Part shown: one piece after another, positions 15,192 through 40,005 of the stretch
How the letters are laid out: every line of letters starts with the position of its first letter
Numbering within the stretch: position 1 is the stretch's first letter
NCBI GenBank assembly: GCA_009839485.1
Contig: VXPQ01000032.1
Location: 154,982 to 218,981, forward strand
Source of the DNA: Bacteroidetes bacterium SB0662_bin_6
GTDB lineage: Bacteria; Bacteroidota; Rhodothermia; Rhodothermales; VXPQ01
Length of the DNA: 64,000 nt
Direction: 5' to 3'
The notes under the pieces: model-generated
Seen by the model: only the letters and a program-made list of their open reading frames with translations
Databases searched by the model: none
Told to the model about the DNA's origin: nothing
Translations under genes and position numbers: made by a program

Positions 15192-15711
15192 GATACTATA
15201 GGGCCACTTCGCTCAGCGCTTCACGTTCGCACGTGAAGTGCCCTTCCGGAGGCCGAGAGGGGCACGCTGGTCGACTTCTTCCCGAAGACTGCACGGAAAC
15301 GCCGCCATACTGCACAGATTTCCGCCGGCAATGCGCGCAGGGAACTATTTCACTCCGGTTCGTAGGAAAGAACTCCTGTCGGACCGGCAACGCGCCATAT
15401 TCTGTAAATCCTTTTTTCGAACAGGCGCTTTGTCCCACTCGACACCCTCACCCGGATCTACGATCAAATTTCCTCTCGCCTGCGCGCACTTCTGCTACCG
15501 TTTCTCGTAAACAAGGGGCTTGTCAAAAACCGCCCCGCCTTAGGACGATAAAACGCTCCGCAGCGGGGGATCAGTGTCCCCCATCAGAGTACTGCAAAAC
15601 CGCCGCGGGGTAATCGGGTCGTCTATACATCGTAGTTATCCACGATCATCGCGAAGAAGTCGGGTGAGTTCGCACGCCGTACGCATAACGGGACAAAAAC
15701 GCCCCGGTCGC
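15192..15711 (+). other. 520-bp region without a recognisable gene (sprA leader)
   Basis: No open frame here resembles a known protein. Two perfect or near-perfect hairpins are visible. One at 15216-15241 has 11-bp arms including one G-U pair and a TCGC loop, shortly after the permease stop. The other at 15565-15582 is GGGGGA-TCAGTG-TCCCCC, about 130 bases before the sprA start. Neither is followed by a T-run. An in-frame GTG at 15574 could extend SprA, but the added residues do not look like a signal peptide. I see no clear promoter hexamers. Confidence 0.5.
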
Positions 15712-18700
15712 ATGGATGCCCCACGCGCGCATGCAGCAGGCGCCATCATCATGGCGGTCCTGTTGCAAGGCATGGCGGCGCACTACGGCAGCGCACAGGT
15801 TTCTCCACCGCCGAAAGACGACACCGTTTCGGATACGGACGCCCCCACATTCGGGATGATCTTTTTCAACCGCACCGCAACGGCCGACCCGGACACCCTC
15901 ACATTCGAGATGATTTTCGGCAATGCCGCCGAGAGAGCCGACACGACCGATACCACGGCTTATCGCAGGGCGGATTTCTACCTGCCGTCCACACAGCCCG
16001 ACCGCCGGATGGCGTCCCCGGTTCAACGGGCCCGCCGCCCCTTCTTCCCTGCACTGGGCAACTATTGGCGCCACGAGGTCGAGCTCGACTCCACCCGGAA
16101 GGAGTTTATCGTCCGCGAATTCGTCGGGGAGAGCGAGGTGCGATATCCGCTCGTCATCGACTTCGAAAGCTACCGGGAACGCCGCCTGAACGCCTGGCTC
16201 AGCGACAACTGGCGTATCATCAGCGAACAGAAAGCCCAGCAACGGCGGCAGCGGACCCGGGGCGGTATTGGATTCAATATCGCCATACCCGGCGGCCGGC
16301 AAAGCGCCTTCAGCACCATATTCGGCGCAAACACCGTGAGCCTTCGCGTAAACGGGCAGGCCAGTATCCAGGCCGGCTTCGATTACCGCAAAAGCGACCA
16401 GCAGGTGGCTGTTACGGGACGATCCGGACAACTTTCTCCGGAATTCAATCAGGACATCCGCCTTGGCATCACGGGCTCGATCGGCGACAAACTCGACATT
16501 GACGTAGACTGGGACACGCAAAATCAGTTCGAATTCCAGAATCAACTCCGGCTACAGTACACGGGATACGAAGACGAAATTATCCGGAATATCGAAGCGG
16601 GAAACGTCAACCTTTCGACGCCCTCGCGCCTGATTCGCGGCGGCCAGAGTCTGTTCGGCATCAAAAGCGAATTCCAACTGGGCGGCTGGCACCTGACGAC
16701 GGTGGCAAGCCAGCAGGAAGGCCAGACGAACAGCCTGTCCATCGAGGGCGGGGCCCAGACGACGGAATTCGACATGAAGCCGACGGAATACAACGACAAT
16801 ACGCACTATTTCCTTGCCTATTATTTCCGCAATCGCTGGGAAGACGCCCTGCAAAGCCCTCCGCAGATACTCGTCGCCAACGGGTTCGAAAGCATCACCG
16901 ACATCGAGGTCTGGAAACTCGAACGAACCAGCGCCGAAGAGGAAAATGTGCGCCAGGCCGTTGCACTGGTCGATCTTGGAGAACCCCAGGATGTCGTGCG
17001 TCTGGCCAACGGCTATACGGCGCAGACCCTTCCCGGCACCGATGTCTGGCGATACCCGCAAGCCGCGCTGGATGCGGAGGTCCGGAACGGCGAGGCCAAG
17101 CCACAGGATTATCTGGCCTCACTGGGTCTGGGCGACGACGATTTTCAGGTGGGTAAATTCAAGAAACTCCGGCCGGGGAGCGACTTCGATTTCGACAATG
17201 TGCTCGGGTATATCTCCTTGCGGCAGCGCATGCAGGAAAACGAGGCGCTGGCCGTGGCTTTTCGTTTCCGGGCAAATGGGCAAACGTATCAGGTGGGAGA
17301 TTTTTCCTCGGAAACAGGGGGGGCTTCCGGCGGGCAAAATTCGGATCGCCTCGTACTGAAACTGCTCAAGCCTGTGCAACTGCGCCAACCCAACCCCGAA
17401 GGGGATTTCAACCCGGCCGCATGGTATCTCGAATTGCGCAACATCTACCGGATACCCGGCCGGGGGTTGAACCCGAACGACTTCGAACTGCAAGTGGAAT
17501 ACCAGCCCCCGGGCAGTCCGGCGGCTACCGTCATACCCGAACTGAACGGCGCCAAACGGCAAACGCTTCTCCAACTCCTCGGACTCGACCGTCTCAATAC
17601 AGACCTTGCGGAACGCCCCGATGACATTTTCGATTATCTCGTCAACTTCACGATCAACCCTTCGAAAGGCGAGTTGATCTTCCCCTGGCTCGAACCCTTC
17701 GGAAGTCATATAGAGGACGTTATTGACGGTCTGGACATCCCTGAAAGCCAAAAACAGGCCCGCAAAAACAAATTCGCGTACGCCGGCCTCTATACGCAAA
17801 AGAAAGAACTGGCTGCTCGCCAGTCACAATTCGACGTATATCGTATACGGGGATCTTACAGAGGCGCCGTACAGGATTTCTACGACTTGCGCGCCTTTTC
17901 AGGACTCATCGAAGGGTCCGTTAACGTCACATCGGGCGGAAGCAGGCTGACGGAGGGCACCGATTTCATAGTGGATTACCAGGGCGGCACGGTCACGATC
18001 ATCAATGACGCCTACCTGATCGGGGGGCGCGCCATCGAAATCGATTACGAGCAGAACTCATACTTCAACATCCAGAAAAAGACGTTGCTCGGCGCCCGCC
18101 TCGATTATGTCGTCAGCGACGAACTCGCATTCGGGAGTACGATGTTCAGACTGAATCAGAAATCCCCTATCGATAAATACCGCGTCGGGGAGGAGCCGAT
18201 TTCGAACACCATCTGGGGACTGGACGGCCAACTGAACATAGAGCCTCTGTGGTTGACGCGCGCCGTCGACGCCATTCCTTTGATCCAGACCCGGGCGCCC
18301 AGCCATATCCGGGTATCCGGAGAATTTGCGCAACTCCGCCCCGGAGCAAATCCTACCACAGCCTTCGAACGGTCACGGAGGAATCTCAGAAAACTGGGCC
18401 AGGACTTCGAGGGCGACGAGTTGAGGGGCATTTCCTATCTCGACGATTTCGAGGGCTTCGAAAATACCTATTCGTTGCGGCAGGCCGGCGGGTGGCACCT
18501 CGCTTCCGCCCCCGATTCGATCAGCGTATATCCTGCCGACTTTTCGGGCTTTACGGCGGATTCGTTGCGCACCAACTGGCGCGCGGTGCTTGGCTGGTAC
18601 TCGCTGCACCAGAACACGCTGGAAGATCTGATCGGAAAAAACACAAAATGTGATTCGGTGGATCCGGCTATTTGCCCGGTCCGCATCAACGAAGTATTGC

Positions 18701-21700
18701 CGAACAAGGATGTCAGCAAGGAATCGCATCCATTTATCCAGCCGCTTGACGTCTACTTTACGCCCCACCAGCGCGGACCGTACAACTACACGCGAGATCT
18801 CAAGGGCTTTCTCGACGAACCCCGGAACACATGGGGCGGCATGGTGCAGCGATTGCCGGAAGGATATACCGATTTCTCGACCAAGAACATCGAGTTTATC
18901 GAATTCATCGTAAAGGTGTATCCCGAACGCGGAGGACGTGTTCACCGGGATGCGAAGTTATTCGTGGATCTCGGCTCCATTTCGGAAGACATCATTCCCA
19001 ACGGCCTGCTCAACACGGAGGACGGCCTTACCCTCGCCAGCGTCAGCGTACGCGATCTGGACTCATGGAGCCGCACCGCCAGCGGTACGCAGAATATTAC
19101 GATCGACGTGGACGGACAACGCACGGAAGATCTTGGCCTGGACGGATTGGCTTCCTACTCCCCCTCCGATTACGACGATCTGGTAACCGAACAAGCGCAT
19201 TTCAGCAATTTCCTCGATGCGCTCGACGACGGGGTATCCGACCCCCGTTACCGCGCCGAGGCGGCAAAAGCCCGGCTCGACCCTTCGGGCGACGACTTTT
19301 TCTACTTCGGAGCAAACGAATACTTCGAAAACCCGGTGTATTATCCGGGCGGCGCCAGTGTGCAGGAGCGCTTCTCCCGTTACTTTCCAAGCACGGAAAT
19401 AAACTCGTTCGAGGCCCAGAAAGAGTTGGCCCCCTCTCTATACGGCAACAGGGGCAATTCGCGCCTTCCCGACACCGAGGACCTCAACATCAATTCGGCG
19501 GCCGATACCGACAACAGCTATTTTCAGTACCAACTGCCTCTGGCGCCTGCAGCGCTCGACTCCCTTGCCAGACCGGAGCGCACGAACGATTATGTCGTCA
19601 CGGAAATTGCGCCGGGCGGCGGATGGTATCAGATCCGCATTCCCGTCCGGGATTTCACGCGCCGGGTCGGCAATATACAGGACTTCAGCCTCATCGAATC
19701 GATCCGGGTATGGACCACCGGACACGATAACCCTGTCACACTCCGTTTCCCGACGTTCGAGCTGGTGGGCGCCCAATGGCAGAAATCCGAGGCGGTCATA
19801 TCCGAACGAAGCCTTCCGGCCGACATCCTGCGGGACCAGACGCGCCTCTCCGTTTCGAGCATAAACAACGAGGAAAACAGCACCACGTACGCCACGCCCA
19901 ACGGCACGATCATCAGCCAGATCCGCACCACTGCAGGGGAACTGCAAAACGCCCGCGAACAGGCCATGGCTTTGCGGGTCGAGAACCTGACGCCCGGCAA
20001 GCAGCAGGCTATTTTCAAGACGTACAATCAGGAAGTCGATTTGCTGAAATACTCGAACCTGCGCATGTTTCTGCACATGCACGGCGAACGGGGGGACGGC
20101 GCACCCATCGAAGAGCGGGATAACGTTCGCTTCTTCCTGCGCCTTGGCGCCAACGAAACGAACGACTACTACGAGTACGAGATGCCGCTGTCCCCCAGTT
20201 CGATCGCCTCAAGAGACGCCGACGAACTCTGGCAGACCAGCCGCATGGTAGGAGGCGAACTCATCGATCTGAATTCGGTGAATATCAAACTGGGGGCCCT
20301 GAACCAGCTCAAGGTATCGCGCGACGACCGGGCCTTCGCCACAGACAGCGTCTACTGGTCGGATATTCACGATGTGCCCCTGAGTCCCGGCATCGCTGAA
20401 TTCGCCCCGCCGGGTACCCGCCTCGGCGTCAAGGGAAGACCCTCCCTCGGCGGCATCAACACGATCGTACTTGGTATTCGCAACACGGCGGACTCGACCA
20501 TTGCCGGCGTTCGGAACTCTCGGCCCGAAGATATTCTCGGGGATGTGACGGTCTGGGTAAACGAATTGCGGGTATCCGGCTACGATGAAACGAACGGCTG
20601 GGCCGCTATCGGAAACGCAGATATCAAACTGGCCGATTTCGCCACGCTCAGAGCCAGCTGGAAACACCAGACTGACGGCTTCGGTGGCCTGGAAAGCACG
20701 TTGGGTGATCGCGAGCAGGATAAAATATCCAACTGGAGCGTTACGACCGATGTCAACCTCGACAAATTCATCCCGGAAAAATACGGCTGGACGCTTCCCG
20801 CCTCGGTCCAGGTATCCAATCAGACGACAACGCCTCGTTTTTCACCCAACCGGGGAGACATTCGCCTTGAGGAACTGCTTACACAGACCGATCGGAACGA
20901 CGAACTGACCGAGGCGGAACGTGAGCAGAAAAAAGACGAAATCATCGAAGCGGCCCAAACCCGATCCGTCACACGCTCCTACAGTATACGCGTCGGAAAG
21001 TCGGGATCCGACTCGCGGGTGTTGCGCAATACGCTGGACGGCATTGCCTTCAGTTTTTCTTCCTCGGATGCGGCGGCAAGTAATCCATCCCAGCGAAAAC
21101 GGGACAACCAGCGCTGGAACTCCTCTCTCACCTACCGGGTGAATGTTCGGCGGCCGCGTACGGTGCGCCCGTTCTGGTTCCTCGGCGATATCCCCGTGTT
21201 GCGCACCCTCGGCGGATTGAACTTCAATTATGCCCCCAGGGCCGTCACGGCCGGAGCCACAGCGGCACGGAACTTCAGCGTGTCGCAAGACCGCCGCCGC
21301 GAACTTCCCGATCCGATGGCGGAATTCTTGCCGGAGCTGGTCGAATTTCCGCTGCGCCAGTCGCACGCGCTTTCGCACCGGCGCAACGGCAACCTCCAAT
21401 ACGATCCGTTCCAGTTCCTCAACGTGTCGTATACGGCCAGTACAAGCCAGAGCCTGAATGCAGCAGGGGTGGATACCGTATTTACTGTAATCCGGGTGGA
21501 CAGTCTGAGTAACGAGAGCTTTTTTGCGAACACGACAGAAGCAGAAGCGCTCGCTTCGGGACTGATCAATGAAAACGATACACGGTACGAAATCAGCGAA
21601 TTGCGTCTGGTTCGAGCAGGCCAGGTGCTCAACCGCATCTTCTCGGGACACGAAGGGGTTCGAACCGATCAGCACAACGAACAATTCACGGCTACCTTCA

Positions 21701-23733
21701 ATCCCAGAATGCCGGCTTCCCTGGACTGGTTTAATATCCAGAATATCACCTGGAGTTCACAATTCTCCTGGAGAAACGGTTCGGTTGGGCGTAACACCGG
21801 CGCCTCTGCAAGCAACCAGTCCCAGGTGAGCGGCAGCAACACAATCCACCTGCAGGACCTGTTCCGGAAAATCCCGTTCTACGAAGTGATGGAGCAGGCA
21901 GAGAACCAATACCGGCAGGAAAAGGAGGCCGAGCGTGCACAGCGCCGGCAGGAACGCGCTGCTGCGAGAGAGGAACGCAGGGCTATCAGGGAAGCGGAGC
22001 GTGAGGAAAGAAGACGCCTGGAACAGGAAGAGGAAGAGCGCAGGGAGCGGGAAAAGGCCGCTGCAGAGGCGGCGGAAGAAGAGGGAACAGGTGAAGGCGA
22101 AGAGGACGATGCCATACAGGAAGAGGAAGAGGCGCTGCTCGAAACGGAAGAAATGCCCCTGGAAGGCGAGGAGGCGCTGCCCACGCCCGAAGTCTTGCCT
22201 GTAGAGGAAGAAGACACACCGCCTGCCGGCGAGTTGGAACTGACCGGCGAAGCCGAAGAAGAAACGCCGGGTGACGAAAACATTGAAGTGGAAGCCGAAG
22301 AAGAGGACAGCGGTCCGAATTTCTTCACGACTTTGTTGCCGAACCCTGCCTCGATAGCTCGCCGTACCCTCCTGGCAATCACAGGTATCAGGGAGTTGAC
22401 GATCACGTACAGATCGAACCAGGGCAGCAATTCCAGCAACGTGGGACGGCTCTTACTGGATGATAACGACAACATCCTCGGCGTAGATGCCCCCTACAGT
22501 CTTGTGGACGCCATCTTCAATAACGAAGGGCCGCCTTTAGGATACCGCTTCGGACTCGAACGGGATCTACCCCTTGAACAGCGTATCATCAGTGACCGGA
22601 TACAAGTGCGGGACGCCTTGACGGCTCAGCAGCAGATACAAGGGCGCACGACGCTCAACCCCACACAATCCCTCCAGATCAATCTGACCTGGAATGCCAA
22701 TTGGACAAACAGCACCAACCGGACGTACCGTCCGGACCCGATCACGATCACAGAAACATTCACCGGATCGAACCGGGCATCCGTTTGGGTCTTCGGGCCG
22801 GGATATCTGGACATGTTCGCAAGGCAGTTGGAAACCTACCAGCAAGACGATGCCCGGGCGGCTGATTCCCGGCGCATCGGCGACGAAAATGGAGACGGGC
22901 GTATCGTGCTCACCAATGAATCCATCGTCACCGATTTTCAGGATGCCTTCCTCTCCGGCCTGGGTACAGTGGACTCACGAGGATTCCTGCCTTTCCCCAT
23001 GCCCGGCTGGCAAATTTCCTGGTCGGGAATCGGGCAATGGCCCATCATCCGCAACCTGGTTACGAATGCCAGCATCCGGCATGGCTATAGCTCGGACTAC
23101 GCCACGGATTACCGCCGCAATGTGATTTCGAGTGACTCGACCCGTGCTTTTGCGCTGAGTGGACAGCAAATCGTGTTTACCATCCCCGAAGACGAGATCG
23201 GGAGTCTCCGGGTAAACGAACGCTTCCAGCCGCTGATCGGGCTTGACCTTTCCTTCAAAGGCAATCTTCAGACGAGCATTACCTGGGAGAAAAGCACCTC
23301 CTACGTGCTGAGCACCACCAACTTCGAGGTGTCGGAAAACAACAACAGTCAAATCACCATGACGGCCAACTATTCCAGATCCGGCATGAAGTTGCCCTTC
23401 CTGAAAAGGATCAACAACCGGATCAGTTTCAGCCTGACTATGTCCGTTGCCAACCTGAGCGACCGGCGCTTTTTGCTGCGACGGGCGTTAACGGATTACA
23501 TTGACCGCCGCCAGGAATTCCGGGTCGACGACGCACTCGAGGGAGACAACGTATCGGTTATTTCCGCTTCGAAACGCTACACGGTCGCACCCCGCATTTC
23601 CTACCAGATCAGCAATCGCGTCAGCACGGATTTCACGCTTCGCTACGAGAACTTCATCAGTGAAGACAGTCGTACGCCTTCCTCCACCAACATCAACGGT
23701 GGGGTTAATTTCCGGTTAAGCATCGCCAACTGA
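15712..23733 (+). CDS. sprA: SprA, outer-membrane translocon of the type IX secretion system
   Basis: SprA (also Sov) forms the giant beta-barrel through which T9SS cargo crosses the outer membrane; it is also needed for gliding in flavobacteria. This copy has 2673 residues. A hydrophobic export segment (GAIIMAVLLQGMAAHYGSAQ, about 11-30) is followed by the repeated SprA blocks, for example GIGFNIAIPGGRQSAFSTIFG and LRLGITGSIGDKLDIDVDWD, and by many barrel-like strands to a terminal NGGVNFRLSIAN. A highly charged tract (about 2062-2203), first Arg/Glu-rich and then almost purely acidic, interrupts the C-terminal third. ATG at 15712 is preferred over the upstream GTG. The T9SS-tagged metalloprotease at 28307-30877 is a likely substrate. 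Confidence 0.93.
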   Translation: MDAPRAHAAGAIIMAVLLQGMAAHYGSAQVSPPPKDDTVSDTDAPTFGMIFFNRTATADPDTLTFEMIFGNAAERADTTDTTAYRRADFYLPSTQPDRRMASPVQRARRPFFPALGNYWRHEVELDSTRKEFIVREFVGESEVRYPLVIDFESYRERRLNAWLSDNWRIISEQKAQQRRQRTRGGIGFNIAIPGGRQSAFSTIFGANTVSLRVNGQASIQAGFDYRKSDQQVAVTGRSGQLSPEFNQDIRLGITGSIGDKLDIDVDWDTQNQFEFQNQLRLQYTGYEDEIIRNIEAGNVNLSTPSRLIRGGQSLFGIKSEFQLGGWHLTTVASQQEGQTNSLSIEGGAQTTEFDMKPTEYNDNTHYFLAYYFRNRWEDALQSPPQILVANGFESITDIEVWKLERTSAEEENVRQAVALVDLGEPQDVVRLANGYTAQTLPGTDVWRYPQAALDAEVRNGEAKPQDYLASLGLGDDDFQVGKFKKLRPGSDFDFDNVLGYISLRQRMQENEALAVAFRFRANGQTYQVGDFSSETGGASGGQNSDRLVLKLLKPVQLRQPNPEGDFNPAAWYLELRNIYRIPGRGLNPNDFELQVEYQPPGSPAATVIPELNGAKRQTLLQLLGLDRLNTDLAERPDDIFDYLVNFTINPSKGELIFPWLEPFGSHIEDVIDGLDIPESQKQARKNKFAYAGLYTQKKELAARQSQFDVYRIRGSYRGAVQDFYDLRAFSGLIEGSVNVTSGGSRLTEGTDFIVDYQGGTVTIINDAYLIGGRAIEIDYEQNSYFNIQKKTLLGARLDYVVSDELAFGSTMFRLNQKSPIDKYRVGEEPISNTIWGLDGQLNIEPLWLTRAVDAIPLIQTRAPSHIRVSGEFAQLRPGANPTTAFERSRRNLRKLGQDFEGDELRGISYLDDFEGFENTYSLRQAGGWHLASAPDSISVYPADFSGFTADSLRTNWRAVLGWYSLHQNTLEDLIGKNTKCDSVDPAICPVRINEVLPNKDVSKESHPFIQPLDVYFTPHQRGPYNYTRDLKGFLDEPRNTWGGMVQRLPEGYTDFSTKNIEFIEFIVKVYPERGGRVHRDAKLFVDLGSISEDIIPNGLLNTEDGLTLASVSVRDLDSWSRTASGTQNITIDVDGQRTEDLGLDGLASYSPSDYDDLVTEQAHFSNFLDALDDGVSDPRYRAEAAKARLDPSGDDFFYFGANEYFENPVYYPGGASVQERFSRYFPSTEINSFEAQKELAPSLYGNRGNSRLPDTEDLNINSAADTDNSYFQYQLPLAPAALDSLARPERTNDYVVTEIAPGGGWYQIRIPVRDFTRRVGNIQDFSLIESIRVWTTGHDNPVTLRFPTFELVGAQWQKSEAVISERSLPADILRDQTRLSVSSINNEENSTTYATPNGTIISQIRTTAGELQNAREQAMALRVENLTPGKQQAIFKTYNQEVDLLKYSNLRMFLHMHGERGDGAPIEERDNVRFFLRLGANETNDYYEYEMPLSPSSIASRDADELWQTSRMVGGELIDLNSVNIKLGALNQLKVSRDDRAFATDSVYWSDIHDVPLSPGIAEFAPPGTRLGVKGRPSLGGINTIVLGIRNTADSTIAGVRNSRPEDILGDVTVWVNELRVSGYDETNGWAAIGNADIKLADFATLRASWKHQTDGFGGLESTLGDREQDKISNWSVTTDVNLDKFIPEKYGWTLPASVQVSNQTTTPRFSPNRGDIRLEELLTQTDRNDELTEAEREQKKDEIIEAAQTRSVTRSYSIRVGKSGSDSRVLRNTLDGIAFSFSSSDAAASNPSQRKRDNQRWNSSLTYRVNVRRPRTVRPFWFLGDIPVLRTLGGLNFNYAPRAVTAGATAARNFSVSQDRRRELPDPMAEFLPELVEFPLRQSHALSHRRNGNLQYDPFQFLNVSYTASTSQSLNAAGVDTVFTVIRVDSLSNESFFANTTEAEALASGLINENDTRYEISELRLVRAGQVLNRIFSGHEGVRTDQHNEQFTATFNPRMPASLDWFNIQNITWSSQFSWRNGSVGRNTGASASNQSQVSGSNTIHLQDLFRKIPFYEVMEQAENQYRQEKEAERAQRRQERAAAREERRAIREAEREERRRLEQEEEERREREKAAAEAAEEEGTGEGEEDDAIQEEEEALLETEEMPLEGEEALPTPEVLPVEEEDTPPAGELELTGEAEEETPGDENIEVEAEEEDSGPNFFTTLLPNPASIARRTLLAITGIRELTITYRSNQGSNSSNVGRLLLDDNDNILGVDAPYSLVDAIFNNEGPPLGYRFGLERDLPLEQRIISDRIQVRDALTAQQQIQGRTTLNPTQSLQINLTWNANWTNSTNRTYRPDPITITETFTGSNRASVWVFGPGYLDMFARQLETYQQDDARAADSRRIGDENGDGRIVLTNESIVTDFQDAFLSGLGTVDSRGFLPFPMPGWQISWSGIGQWPIIRNLVTNASIRHGYSSDYATDYRRNVISSDSTRAFALSGQQIVFTIPEDEIGSLRVNERFQPLIGLDLSFKGNLQTSITWEKSTSYVLSTTNFEVSENNNSQITMTANYSRSGMKLPFLKRINNRISFSLTMSVANLSDRRFLLRRALTDYIDRRQEFRVDDALEGDNVSVISASKRYTVAPRISYQISNRVSTDFTLRYENFISEDSRTPSSTNINGGVNFRLSIAN

Positions 23734-35769: not shown

Positions 35770-37596
35770 CTAACCGGGTCTCGCGCCTCTCGACAACGGA
35801 ACCTTCCGGGTGAGGTCCTCCCCGGATCGGGTATCCGTGACGCGGAACGCGTACGGCGACATCGTTCCGTCTGTTTTGAGACGAATCGACAGCGAATGTT
35901 TCAGAAAGAACCCGAAACGGTTGGCGGTAATTTTGCGCCTCAGCCAGGCGGCCGTAAACGGGTGCGTCCATAGCGTAAGGCGCCGGGAACCGCCCAGGGC
36001 CTTGTACCCCACCACCCATTGCTCAATTTCCTGGAGCACCACCATCGGATCCGGGCGCCTTCCCCGGGAACTCCCACGCCCCCTTCCGGAAGACCGTTTC
36101 GGTTCGTTCCGGTCCTTTTTTTCGGGGGGCCGCGTTTCGCTCCGGGCGGGTTGCGCCGTCCCGGCCGAACCATTCTTCGTCAGAAAATCGGGGGAGTTTC
36201 CCCCCGCTGTGACACTTGGACGCAAACGTTGCCGGGTGATCTGGACAAGCCCGAAGTCGCTCATGGGCAGTACCTTCGTCACAGCGCGGTCTTTTCTGAA
36301 TTCCTTCCTGAGCTCATCATAGATTTTCCTCCGGTTCTTCTCATCACGGAGGTCAATGAAATCGACTACGATGATGCCGCCGAGATCCCGCAGGCGAACT
36401 TGCTTGGCGATGGCGCGCGCGGCTTCCAGATTCACCTTTACCGAACTTTCCTCCTGCGAAAGCCCATGTCCCGCCCTGCCCGAGTTCACATCCACCACAT
36501 GCATGGCCTCCGTATGCTCGATAAAGAGATACCCGCCGCCAGGAAGATTAACACGCCCTTCGAATGCCTCCTGTATTTCGGCCTGGATGCCGGCCACCTC
36601 GAACACATGCTTCTTTCCGTTGTGATGCCGGATGGCGTCGGCCATCTGTGGAGCTACCGCCTGAATGTAATTCCTGACGTTTCTGTAAAGCCGTTCGTTG
36701 TCGATCAGCACCCGGTCGTAATCTTCGGAGAACCGATCACGCATAACCGACGAGAGCATATTCACATCCCGATGAACCGGCATGGGCGGGTTGGGGCGCC
36801 CCGCGAGTTTCTGCTCCATCTTGCGCCATTTATCAAGCAGCAGTTGTAAATCCGTGTCGAGCGTTTTAGCATTTTTCCCCTCGGCCACCGTACGCACGAT
36901 CAGACCCACGCCTGGAGGAACGAGACTTTTGGCGAGCGCTTTGAGCCGCCGCCGTTCCTTGTACGAATGAATCTGCTTGGACACGGCTACATAGTTTCCG
37001 AACGGAACGAGAACCAGAAAGCGTCCAGCCATCGAAATGTCCGTGGAAACACGGCTGCCCTTATTCGAGATCGGTTCCTTGACGACCTTGACCAGAATGC
37101 GCTGGTTGACCTTGAGATACTTCTCCGGCGGATCGGCGGATCGGAGACTTTTATCGGTTCTTCTCGACAGGCGTTGTACGAGTCGTCGCCGAGCGCGGAG
37201 TTTCGCTATCGGCGCAACGCGAGTTGTTTCGTCGGTTCGCCCGGATGCGCTGTGATCGCGGCGCGGCTTGCGGCGTGCGCCCCGTTTTCTCGGCGGCTTC
37301 CGATTTTGATTGACTGTGCGGGATACATCCGGTTGCTTTGCGTCCACGAACGCGAGCAACTGCCCGATGTCATCCGACAGATCGGAAAAATGTAGAAAGG
37401 CGTCCTGTTTTCGCCCAATGTCCACGAACGCGGCCTGGATGCTTGGCATAACCTTGCAGACCCTGCCAAGGTAAATGTCGCCGATCGTTCGGGAATTATC
37501 AGGGTTCTCTATGTAGAGTTCTGCGAGACTTCCATTTTCTACGATGGCTATCCGCGTTTGCGCCTTCTCTGCATTGATGACAATTTCCTTACCCAT
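35770..37596 (-). CDS. rng: Ribonuclease E/G family endoribonuclease, atypical
   Basis: RNase E/G enzymes cut AU-rich single-stranded RNA in rRNA maturation and mRNA decay. This 608-residue protein has the S1 domain (IGDIYLGRVCKVMPSIQAAFVDIG, resuming after 160), the 5'-sensor and DNase I-like parts, and catalytic Asp369 (VVDVNSGR) and Asp412 (VVDFIDLRDE). Two features are odd. A basic insert (about 90-158, rich in Arg/Lys) splits the S1 domain. The CPxCxG zinc-link that normally follows QRxRP is absent, replaced by a Ser/Gly/Arg/Pro tract (about 462-520). The whole protein has one Cys, Cys47. The start is ATG 37596; a GTG lies 15 bases upstream. Confidence 0.93.
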   Translation of the reverse strand: MGKEIVINAEKAQTRIAIVENGSLAELYIENPDNSRTIGDIYLGRVCKVMPSIQAAFVDIGRKQDAFLHFSDLSDDIGQLLAFVDAKQPDVSRTVNQNRKPPRKRGARRKPRRDHSASGRTDETTRVAPIAKLRARRRLVQRLSRRTDKSLRSADPPEKYLKVNQRILVKVVKEPISNKGSRVSTDISMAGRFLVLVPFGNYVAVSKQIHSYKERRRLKALAKSLVPPGVGLIVRTVAEGKNAKTLDTDLQLLLDKWRKMEQKLAGRPNPPMPVHRDVNMLSSVMRDRFSEDYDRVLIDNERLYRNVRNYIQAVAPQMADAIRHHNGKKHVFEVAGIQAEIQEAFEGRVNLPGGGYLFIEHTEAMHVVDVNSGRAGHGLSQEESSVKVNLEAARAIAKQVRLRDLGGIIVVDFIDLRDEKNRRKIYDELRKEFRKDRAVTKVLPMSDFGLVQITRQRLRPSVTAGGNSPDFLTKNGSAGTAQPARSETRPPEKKDRNEPKRSSGRGRGSSRGRRPDPMVVLQEIEQWVVGYKALGGSRRLTLWTHPFTAAWLRRKITANRFGFFLKHSLSIRLKTDGTMSPYAFRVTDTRSGEDLTRKVPLSRGARPG

Positions 37597-38188
37597 ATAA
37601 GACGTGAGCACACGCCTTCGATGAGCCGGTTGATGTGTTGTGCACCCGGATCTGCCGGACCGGATATGGCGCCTGAACGATGGGCCGATACGGTCCCAAT
37701 GGCATTTTCATGTGGAGACAGGCAGGTATTCCATGCAATGGTTGCAAGCACATGCATGAAACACGTTTCGAAGAGTGTGCCGTCAGGTTTGGAGCGTCGC
37801 CAGACAACTGGAATATGCCCGGTAAACGGGCTATTCGGCATGAACGCTCCACCTCGCGCATAGGCAACGCACAAAGTACGCTGCTTACGGGAAACAGTAT
37901 CGAAAAACCGACTCAAGGACAACGTGCTACGCTCCTTGAAAAATTGTAAAAAGTCGTGTGTGAAGATCAGCACCCCAGCCGGGGCAGCTAAAGAAAACTC
38001 AACATTTTCTATTATGTTAGATGCCGGCGCTGCATAAATGATCCCGGCGCCGAATCGGCACTTTGTCCTGGTTTACGCGTAAGTATATCAGCTTTGACGT
38101 GCTACACAAAACCGAAATTTCGGTGCTATAATAGTAAGGCCAGCCCTGGTACGGAGCTGCCCGCGTAAATACCACATAACCCCCCATC
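37597..38188. other. 592-bp region without a recognisable gene
   Basis: This gap separates the divergent RNase E/G and citrate synthase genes. Frames on both strands give Cys-, Arg- and Met-rich translations that resemble no family. The left part may be a long 5' leader of the RNase gene, as in E. coli rne, where the leader mediates autoregulation; this is an analogy only. A small CCCC-AGCC-GGGG hairpin lies near 37973-37984. The right end holds the citrate synthase promoter. Confidence 0.45.
38111..38132 (+). promoter_or_regulatory. Citrate synthase promoter: palindrome plus extended -10
   Basis: ACCGAAATTTCGGT (38111-38124) is a perfect 14-bp palindrome. Its last T together with the next base gives TG, one base before TATAAT (38127-38132): a textbook extended -10 (TGCTATAAT) 56 bases before the gltA ATG. 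A protein bound to the palindrome would cover the -35/-10 spacer, so repression is the simplest guess. Confidence 0.55.
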
Positions 38189-39485: not shown

Positions 39486-39779
39486 CTATTCCTCTGCCTC
39501 CTCCGCGGATGCCTCCTCCTCCATTTCTTCCATGGCCTCCTCTTCCATGCCTTCCTCATCCCCCATGTCCCCCATGTCTTCACCTTCCATCTCTCCCTCC
39601 ATCCCGTCACCTTCCATCTCCATCTCATCGGCTTCCATCTCCATGGCTTCGCCTTCCATCTCCATGTCATGGTCTTCCATCATAGCATCTTCGCTATCCG
39701 CCTCCTGCCCTCCACAGCCGACAAGAGCCGTCAAGGCAATCACAAGGGTCATTATGGAAAACGTACGCAATATCGTCAT
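39486..39779 (-). CDS. Met/Glu-rich small lipoprotein
   Basis: This 97-residue protein has a signal peptide with lipobox LVGC (Cys22). Everything after it is low complexity: alternating Met, Glu, Asp and Gly (DHDMEMEGEAMEMEADEME and similar), ending in an almost pure Glu/Ala tail. There is one His. The mature chain is very acidic with about twenty Met, which could bind soft metal ions such as Cu(I), or could simply be an unstructured acidic spacer. The DNA repeat units are imperfect, so the tract is not a simple trinucleotide run. ATG 39779 is chosen for the signal peptide. No family is recognised. Confidence 0.75.
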   Translation of the reverse strand: MTILRTFSIMTLVIALTALVGCGGQEADSEDAMMEDHDMEMEGEAMEMEADEMEMEGDGMEGEMEGEDMGDMGDEEGMEEEAMEEMEEEASAEEAEE

Positions 39780-39905
39780 AGCTGGCCTCCTTATGGCGAG
39801 TGGTTCTTCAAGTGCAGATCTTTGGCAGAGCTTCTTGCGAGATACCCCGCAAACGCCCTCTCCCCAAAGCATGCGGCTCAATTCCGGACAATAGACAGTA
39901 TATTC

Positions 39906-39916
39906 ACAAAGTTTGT
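39906..39916. promoter_or_regulatory. Short palindrome in the divergent lipoprotein/sdhC region
   Basis: ACAAAGTTTGT is an 11-bp inverted repeat with a single central base. It lies just upstream, on the minus strand, of TATACT (39902-39897), a possible -10 of the Met/Glu-rich lipoprotein gene. The 226-bp region holds no other gene. Regulatory meaning is speculative. Confidence 0.25.
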
Positions 39917-40005
39917 AATAATCCAATGGAACCTGATATTTATTATCCTTAGCATCCCTTTTTGTATCCTGTTACGCCCTGACGAGGCCCGAAAAGCCCT
40001 GCACC

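Follow-up and report, generated by a model that had tools for sequence, protein, structure and literature searches.

A Rhodothermales RNase E/G without the CPxCxG zinc-link, and the distribution of the motif among its relatives

Introduction

Can an RNase E/G dispense with the zinc-link that holds together the Escherichia coli enzyme and, if so, how would its protomers and its small domain be organized? This question is raised by a gene in the window, the 64,000-nucleotide stretch of DNA from Bacteroidetes bacterium SB0662_bin_6 that was analysed here. In a preliminary description based on the letters alone, the product was depicted as an RNase E/G with both catalytic Asp residues and a single Cys, in which the CPxCxG motif is replaced by a Ser/Gly/Arg/Pro tract and the S1 domain is split by an Arg/Lys-rich insert.

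The zinc-link of E. coli RNase E is essential for activity and important for assembly, according to the accessible portions of two papers (PMC2631609, PMC12510024). According to the first of these, the zinc is located between the large and small domains, and the dimer interface consists mainly of self-complementary contacts between DNase I subdomains, with a second self-interface between the small domains; when the motif is mutated or deleted, tetramers do not form and activity falls substantially (PMC2631609). In the accessible part of the second paper, an artificially maintained E. coli tetramer is cited, at second hand, as preserving activity, and in a test on C. crescentus foci form only if at least one of two Cys residues is present (PMC12510024).

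Residues are numbered below from the GTG start, whereas the preliminary description counted from the ATG. The features of the gene are as follows.

35770..37611, minus strand: Rne/Rng family ribonuclease (RNase E/G) gene, 613 amino acids from GTG
37596, minus strand: alternative ATG start, five codons after the GTG, giving 608 amino acids; the start used in the preliminary description
37456..37458, minus strand: sole Cys of the protein, residue 52
37126..37359, minus strand: insert rich in Arg and Lys within the loop of the S1 domain, residues 85-162
36214..37125, minus strand: rest of S1, 5'-sensor, and RNase H-like and DNase I-like catalytic region, residues 163-466
36490..36492, minus strand: catalytic Asp 374 (E. 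coli D303; 369 in ATG numbering), D in 49/49 Rhodothermales rows
36361..36363, minus strand: catalytic Asp 417 (E. coli D346; 412 in ATG numbering), D in 49/49 Rhodothermales rows
36037..36213, minus strand: Ser/Gly/Arg/Pro linker replacing the zinc-link, residues 467-525, net charge +7
36178..36189, minus strand: columns aligned to E. coli C404-C407, residues 475-478, without Cys
35797..36048, minus strand: small domain, residues 522-605, retained

Family membership and catalytic core

Membership of the protein in the RNase E/G family is supported by the profiles TIGR00757 (432.7 bits; cut-off 325.95) and PF10150 (311.4 bits; cut-off 25.5). The scores for the equivalog models remain below their cut-offs, at 318.8 bits versus 594 for the RNase G model NF008689 and 248.4 bits versus 908 for the RNase E model NF008074; by the former model, therefore, the window protein is not an RNase G equivalog. 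The S1 profile PF00575 matches above its cut-off (30.7 bits; cut-off 22), with the match confined to residues 43-99 and profile positions 4-48 of 74, because the insert interrupts the domain and leaves only its first part covered.

An RNase E/G gene is present in 60/60 genomes searched, including the genome that carries the window. The latter is a 69-contig assembly with a completeness of 96%, in which the window protein is the sole PF10150 match; a second, zinc-bearing RNase E/G paralogue was considered, and none was found by that search. As a separate observation, one phylum member with a completeness of 95% (G312) had no RNase E/G match.

The catalytic core is strongly conserved. The two Asp residues of the preliminary description are intact, as D374 and D417 in the alignment, and the catalytic set D374, N376 and D417 (E. 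coli D303, N305 and D346) as well as the 5'-sensor residues R240 and T241 (E. coli R169 and T170) are identical in all 49 Rhodothermales rows. More broadly, the columns of E. coli K112, G124, V128, R169, T170, D303, N305 and D346 are invariant in those rows, and those of F57 and F67 are identical in 48 of the 49, with one gap; F62, F72 and K184 of the S1 domain are kept in the window protein. In the seven of 15 congener pairs that were computed, dN/dS for residues 163-466 is 0.02-0.07. The length of the core between anchors is 281-284 residues in nearly all fitted rows, many rows being unfitted. One contact departs from the E. coli enzyme within the order: V444 (36280-36282, minus strand) occupies the E. 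coli R373 position, where V is found in 39 of the 49 Rhodothermales rows, whereas outside the order 61 of 62 phylum rows have K or R and one has Q.

The zinc-link site and the small domain

After the conserved ITRQR, the window protein continues as LRPSVTAGGNSPDFLTKNG..., and no CxxC follows. In the alignment, D475 and T478 stand opposite E. coli C404 and C407, and C52 is the only Cys in the protein. The absence of CPxCxG, the single Cys and the tract of about 60 residues at the site (residues 467-525) are thus as first described. This linker evolves faster than the S1-loop insert and varies in length: within the genus it contains indels and its dN/dS is 0.15-0.63 (7 of 15 congener pairs computed). 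The small domain has a dN/dS of 0.06-0.38 in the same seven pairs, and its residues W532, L547 and H550 are almost invariant in alignment A2.

The region between the core and the small domain is 21-166 residues long across Rhodothermales, and several members of the order have C-terminal parts of 250-540 residues past the small-domain anchor. In one member of family f11 (G015; L284, G015:C165, 1-1300), the linker continues into a long repetitive Arg/Lys-rich tail and no small domain was seen by eye in that open frame, indicating that retention of the small domain is not universal.

The quality of a monomer model built from alignment A2 is modest (mean pLDDT 64, pTM 0.46); an earlier model from alignment A1 (mean pLDDT 51) was set aside. 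In the A2 model, the small domain is a helix/strand unit at residues 522-593, and the mean pLDDT is 71-83 in seven of the eight blocks of 521-600 and 45 in the block 561-570. The linker is modelled without structure (pLDDT 23-34, blocks 451-520), and the S1-loop insert has pLDDT values of 33-52 (blocks 91-160) and a low-confidence helix at 136-151. As the conserved stretches 406-413 and 441-466 of the catalytic region also fall below 50, these low values are weak evidence of disorder. The best Foldseek matches are to E. coli RNase E (2bx2_L, E 8.2e-38). The DNase I domain of 6x2d_A aligns over 110 columns with an rmsd of 2.2, and the whole-chain superposition is poor, with an rmsd of 17.

Distribution of motif loss

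The same anatomy is found in five congeneric genomes (83-96% identity), and CPxCxG is absent from all 71 Rhodothermales genomes read, which represent 15 families; 65 of these were read by script, five by eye (three of f10 and two of f13), and G015 from a second contig piece. Comparison with clade homologues, proposed in the preliminary description, therefore brought to light no Rhodothermales genome with the motif. All 39 genomes read that belong to other orders of the class (f16-f21) carry the motif, as do all 52 further phylum members read outside one order. The latter order came to attention through G283 (L184), a genome of the phylum sample that also lacks the motif, and its genus, family and order were then sampled. 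In this order, which is probably Flavobacteriales, the motif is absent from 60 and present in 15 of 75 genomes read, and all 39 genomes read from the family of G283 lack it. These counts are derived mostly from best-scoring matches and hand-picked loci out of wider searches (117 and 247 genomes), and the fractions should not be taken as unbiased.

Among 36 named records, 15 were read by script as lacking the motif and 19 as carrying it; the other two, read directly, proved to be one without (L041) and one with CPLCDG (L225). Twelve of the 15 are Rhodothermales-type loci, which partly repeat genomes already counted. The remaining three (L222, L223 and L226), found among ten plasmid-collection loci fetched, are short RNase E/G proteins of Alphaproteobacteria whose sequence stops at the catalytic region, with neither link nor small domain. 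In two of them, on Azospirillum plasmids (L222 and L223), the gene lies in a cluster of infA, a Maf family gene, the short RNase E/G gene and yacG.

A tree of 113 hand-picked rows, calculated from 302 core columns that exclude the motif region, places Rhodothermales in one starred clade (SH-aLRT 99). Eighteen zinc-less rows of the order of G283 form one group with a support of 87, which is not starred. The zinc-less L264 stands apart, beside the zinc-bearing L263; both belong to family f54, and the difference suggests a separate loss within it. The motif state requires three changes overall, on one quick tree with two long outgroup branches, and these are read as losses, given that the motif is found in E. 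coli and in most of the tree.

Beyond cellular genomes, 23 viral_contigs stretches matched a pattern from alignment A1 and none was confirmed as a viral relative, and a PHROG search gave no match. Matches occurred in 14 records of the phage collection and 79 of the plasmid collection, all below 60% identity. In the literature searched, as titles and the starts of abstracts, no zinc-link-less RNase E/G was found for Bacteroidota; subscription journals were mostly outside that scope, so absence from print is not established. As a single gene, the window RNase E/G is ordinary for its order, and is a modification of a well-known enzyme.

Proposed assembly without a zinc-link

The reading that best accommodates these observations, and that as a whole is considered reasonably likely, is an RNase E/G with intact catalytic residues that lost the motif once in the ancestor of the order and that combines DNase I pairing, a tethered small domain and an RNA tether in the S1 loop. 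From the distribution and the tree, CPxCxG would have disappeared in the common ancestor of Rhodothermales, from an ancestor with the zinc-link. The S1 domain and 5'-sensor would grip RNA and the Mg-binding Asp pair would cut it, as in E. coli; the residues for both steps are in place. Two protomers most likely still pair through their DNase I faces. Instead of being pinned to the large domain by a shared zinc, as in E. coli, the small domain would hang on a flexible linker, from which it could still self-associate or lend a surface to the partner protomer. The genus-conserved Arg/Lys-rich insert would most likely serve as an additional, non-specific RNA tether.

The earlier statement that zinc-based dimerization looks impossible is to be divided accordingly. 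Zinc coordination by CPxCxG is indeed impossible, as the motif is absent. Dimerization is not thereby excluded, because DNase I contacts dominate the E. coli interface and the small domains provide a second self-interface; the DNase I region and the small domain are both retained in the window protein.

Alternatively, the enzyme could be a monomer or a loose dimer that is intrinsically less active, with a zinc-link that became dispensable and whose site drifted to low-complexity sequence. The pace of linker evolution within one genus (dN/dS 0.15-0.63, with indels) is in line with such drift, as are the short proteins L222, L223 and L226, which have neither link nor small domain. However, the small domain of the window protein is retained and, within the genus, constrained (dN/dS 0.06-0.38), which is hard to square with its making no contribution, and loss of the motif substantially lowers the activity of the E. 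coli enzyme, as stated in the available text of PMC2631609. Drift to a monomer or loose dimer is considered unlikely.

The S1-loop insert

At 89 residues (78-166), the S1 loop of the window protein is longer than that of either E. coli enzyme (22 residues in RNase E, 25 in RNase G) and than those of 13 aligned relatives from the same class outside the order (37-58). The insert noted in the preliminary description is accordingly present within the S1 domain (residues 85-162), and it amounts to about 67 residues beyond the E. coli loop and roughly 30-50 beyond the loops of the same-class outsiders. In all six congeners, two Arg/Lys blocks are present and the aligned insert length is identical. 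The dN/dS of the insert is 0.04-0.25 (7 of 15 congener pairs computed), and in all seven computed pairs dN/dS is below 1 in both the insert and the linker; on these ratios the insert is under purifying selection. Binding of RNA by the insert, one of the functions first proposed for it, is plausible, as it is conserved and basic within the genus.

Across the order, the basic character of this loop is not conserved. In the 49 Rhodothermales rows, the loop ranges from 34 to 599 residues and its net charge from -29 to +27, being positive in 28 rows, zero in two and negative in 19. The insert thus appears to be lineage-specific, with a basic composition mainly in the genus of the window and some related families. 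Long loops in the order are found in the f4 row (287 residues), in f10 (412-444), in f13 (332-599) and in one f9 row (266). Outside the order, a zinc-bearing protein of family f44 (L170, from G230) has a loop of 380 residues with a net charge of +36. This long basic loop beside a zinc motif indicates that growth of the loop and loss of zinc need not go together, and S1-loop expansion would also have arisen separately from zinc loss.

These very long loops in f4, f10, f13, f9 and f44, which coexist with a core of nearly constant length, could be taken to mean that the insert is a partner-recruiting scaffold, equivalent to the terminal degradosome scaffolds of E. coli-type RNase E but placed inside the protein. 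This is considered unlikely, to the same degree as drift to a monomer: the insert of the window protein is only about 70 residues long, and several Rhodothermales have C-terminal parts of 250-540 residues instead.

Possible substitutes for the zinc-link

A different dimerization device might have arisen at the old zinc-link site, such as a coiled coil in family f14, or an unrecognized contact or partner protein might act elsewhere. The variation of the link region within the order (21-166 residues) would suit this possibility. In f14, the linkers are 105-155 residues long, and in five of six rows their heptad pattern was unreached by 300 shuffles, so a replacement clamp could exist in that family; in the sixth row, 31 of 300 shuffles were as good. 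For the 23 remaining rows whose linkers have at least 40 residues, the window protein included, heptad scores are at the floor, 0, although the score is a crude, home-made one with a heavy Pro/Gly penalty and so says little about those rows. The window linker is itself rich in Gly, Ser and Pro and is modelled without structure, and a substitute device is regarded as quite unlikely.

Finally, a sequencing, frameshift or assembly artefact that hides the zinc-link, which the division of the assembly into 69 contigs might bring to mind, is ruled out for practical purposes by the like anatomy of the five congeners and the lack of the motif in 71/71 Rhodothermales genomes, and its probability is negligible.

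Comparison with known enzymes

The window protein resembles the catalytic region of E. coli RNase E (PDB 2bx2, 2vmk, 6g63) in domain order, in the catalytic, S1 and 5'-sensor residues, and in the small domain. Unlike E. coli RNase E, it lacks the CPRC zinc-link and the long C-terminal scaffold, has an S1 loop of 89 rather than 22 residues, and has V in place of R373. It shares with E. coli RNase G a compact form, without a long tail, and a match to NF008689 (below the cut-off), whereas RNase G carries CPTC.

The nearest zinc-linked relatives belong to the same class but to other orders (f16-f21); their RNase E/G proteins have the same core but differ in keeping the motif (39/39) and in a link region of 30 residues in 13 aligned rows. 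The zinc-less enzymes of the order of G283 have lost the same motif, in a separate loss, and like the window protein retain the downstream region; unlike it, they have a link region of 24-31 residues and no S1 insert. More remotely, the archaeal FAU-1/RNase W (PDB 8wo8, 8rza) has an RNase E/G-like domain in common with the bacterial enzymes, to judge from the accessible part of PMC11602121. The structural match is weak (TM 0.24-0.31), and the title of that paper names a novel active site, whereas the window protein keeps the bacterial Asp pair.

Implications

As the loss is common to all members of the order read and is repeated in another large group, it suggests that the zinc clasp is not indispensable. 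The zinc-less enzymes of both orders, which keep the catalytic and 5'-sensor residues, can be seen as natural experiments in which catalysis is uncoupled from metal-pinned assembly, and the order-wide pattern makes the necessity of the zinc-link testable; the loss in the family of G283 would be directly testable if, as read here, that family includes cultured organisms. In annotation and structural modelling, a zinc tetramer should not be assumed for the whole family.

A wider reading is that RNase E/G was rebuilt in metal-free form at least three times in the phylum, that the small domain of the Rhodothermales enzymes is free on a disordered tether, and that in several families a scaffold for RNA or partners moved from the ends of the protein into the S1 loop. 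This combination is tentative and, taken together, somewhat unlikely; if true, substrate capture and quaternary control would be organized differently from those of characterized RNase E enzymes.

RNA decay context and neighbouring sequences

In the genome of the window (96% complete), there is no match for RNase Y and none above the cut-off for TIGR00649, presumably the RNase J model, and PNPase is present. On this basis, RNase E/G would probably be the main endonuclease of RNA decay in this organism, and the window enzyme is probably the chief initiator of decay. RNase Y scores above the cut-off in 23 of 30 Rhodothermales genomes checked; there was no match in three f14 genomes and there were only weak matches in G009, G041 and G047 (f5), and the distribution of RNase Y is patchy across the class.

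Two other open reading frames in the window may be mentioned. The one at 39486-39926 (minus strand), which is overlapped by frames on the opposite strand, has a lipoprotein-like Cys followed, at its end, by a Met/Glu/Asp repeat. The open frame at 15574-23733 encodes 2719 amino acids and is the longest among the listed reading frames of the window.
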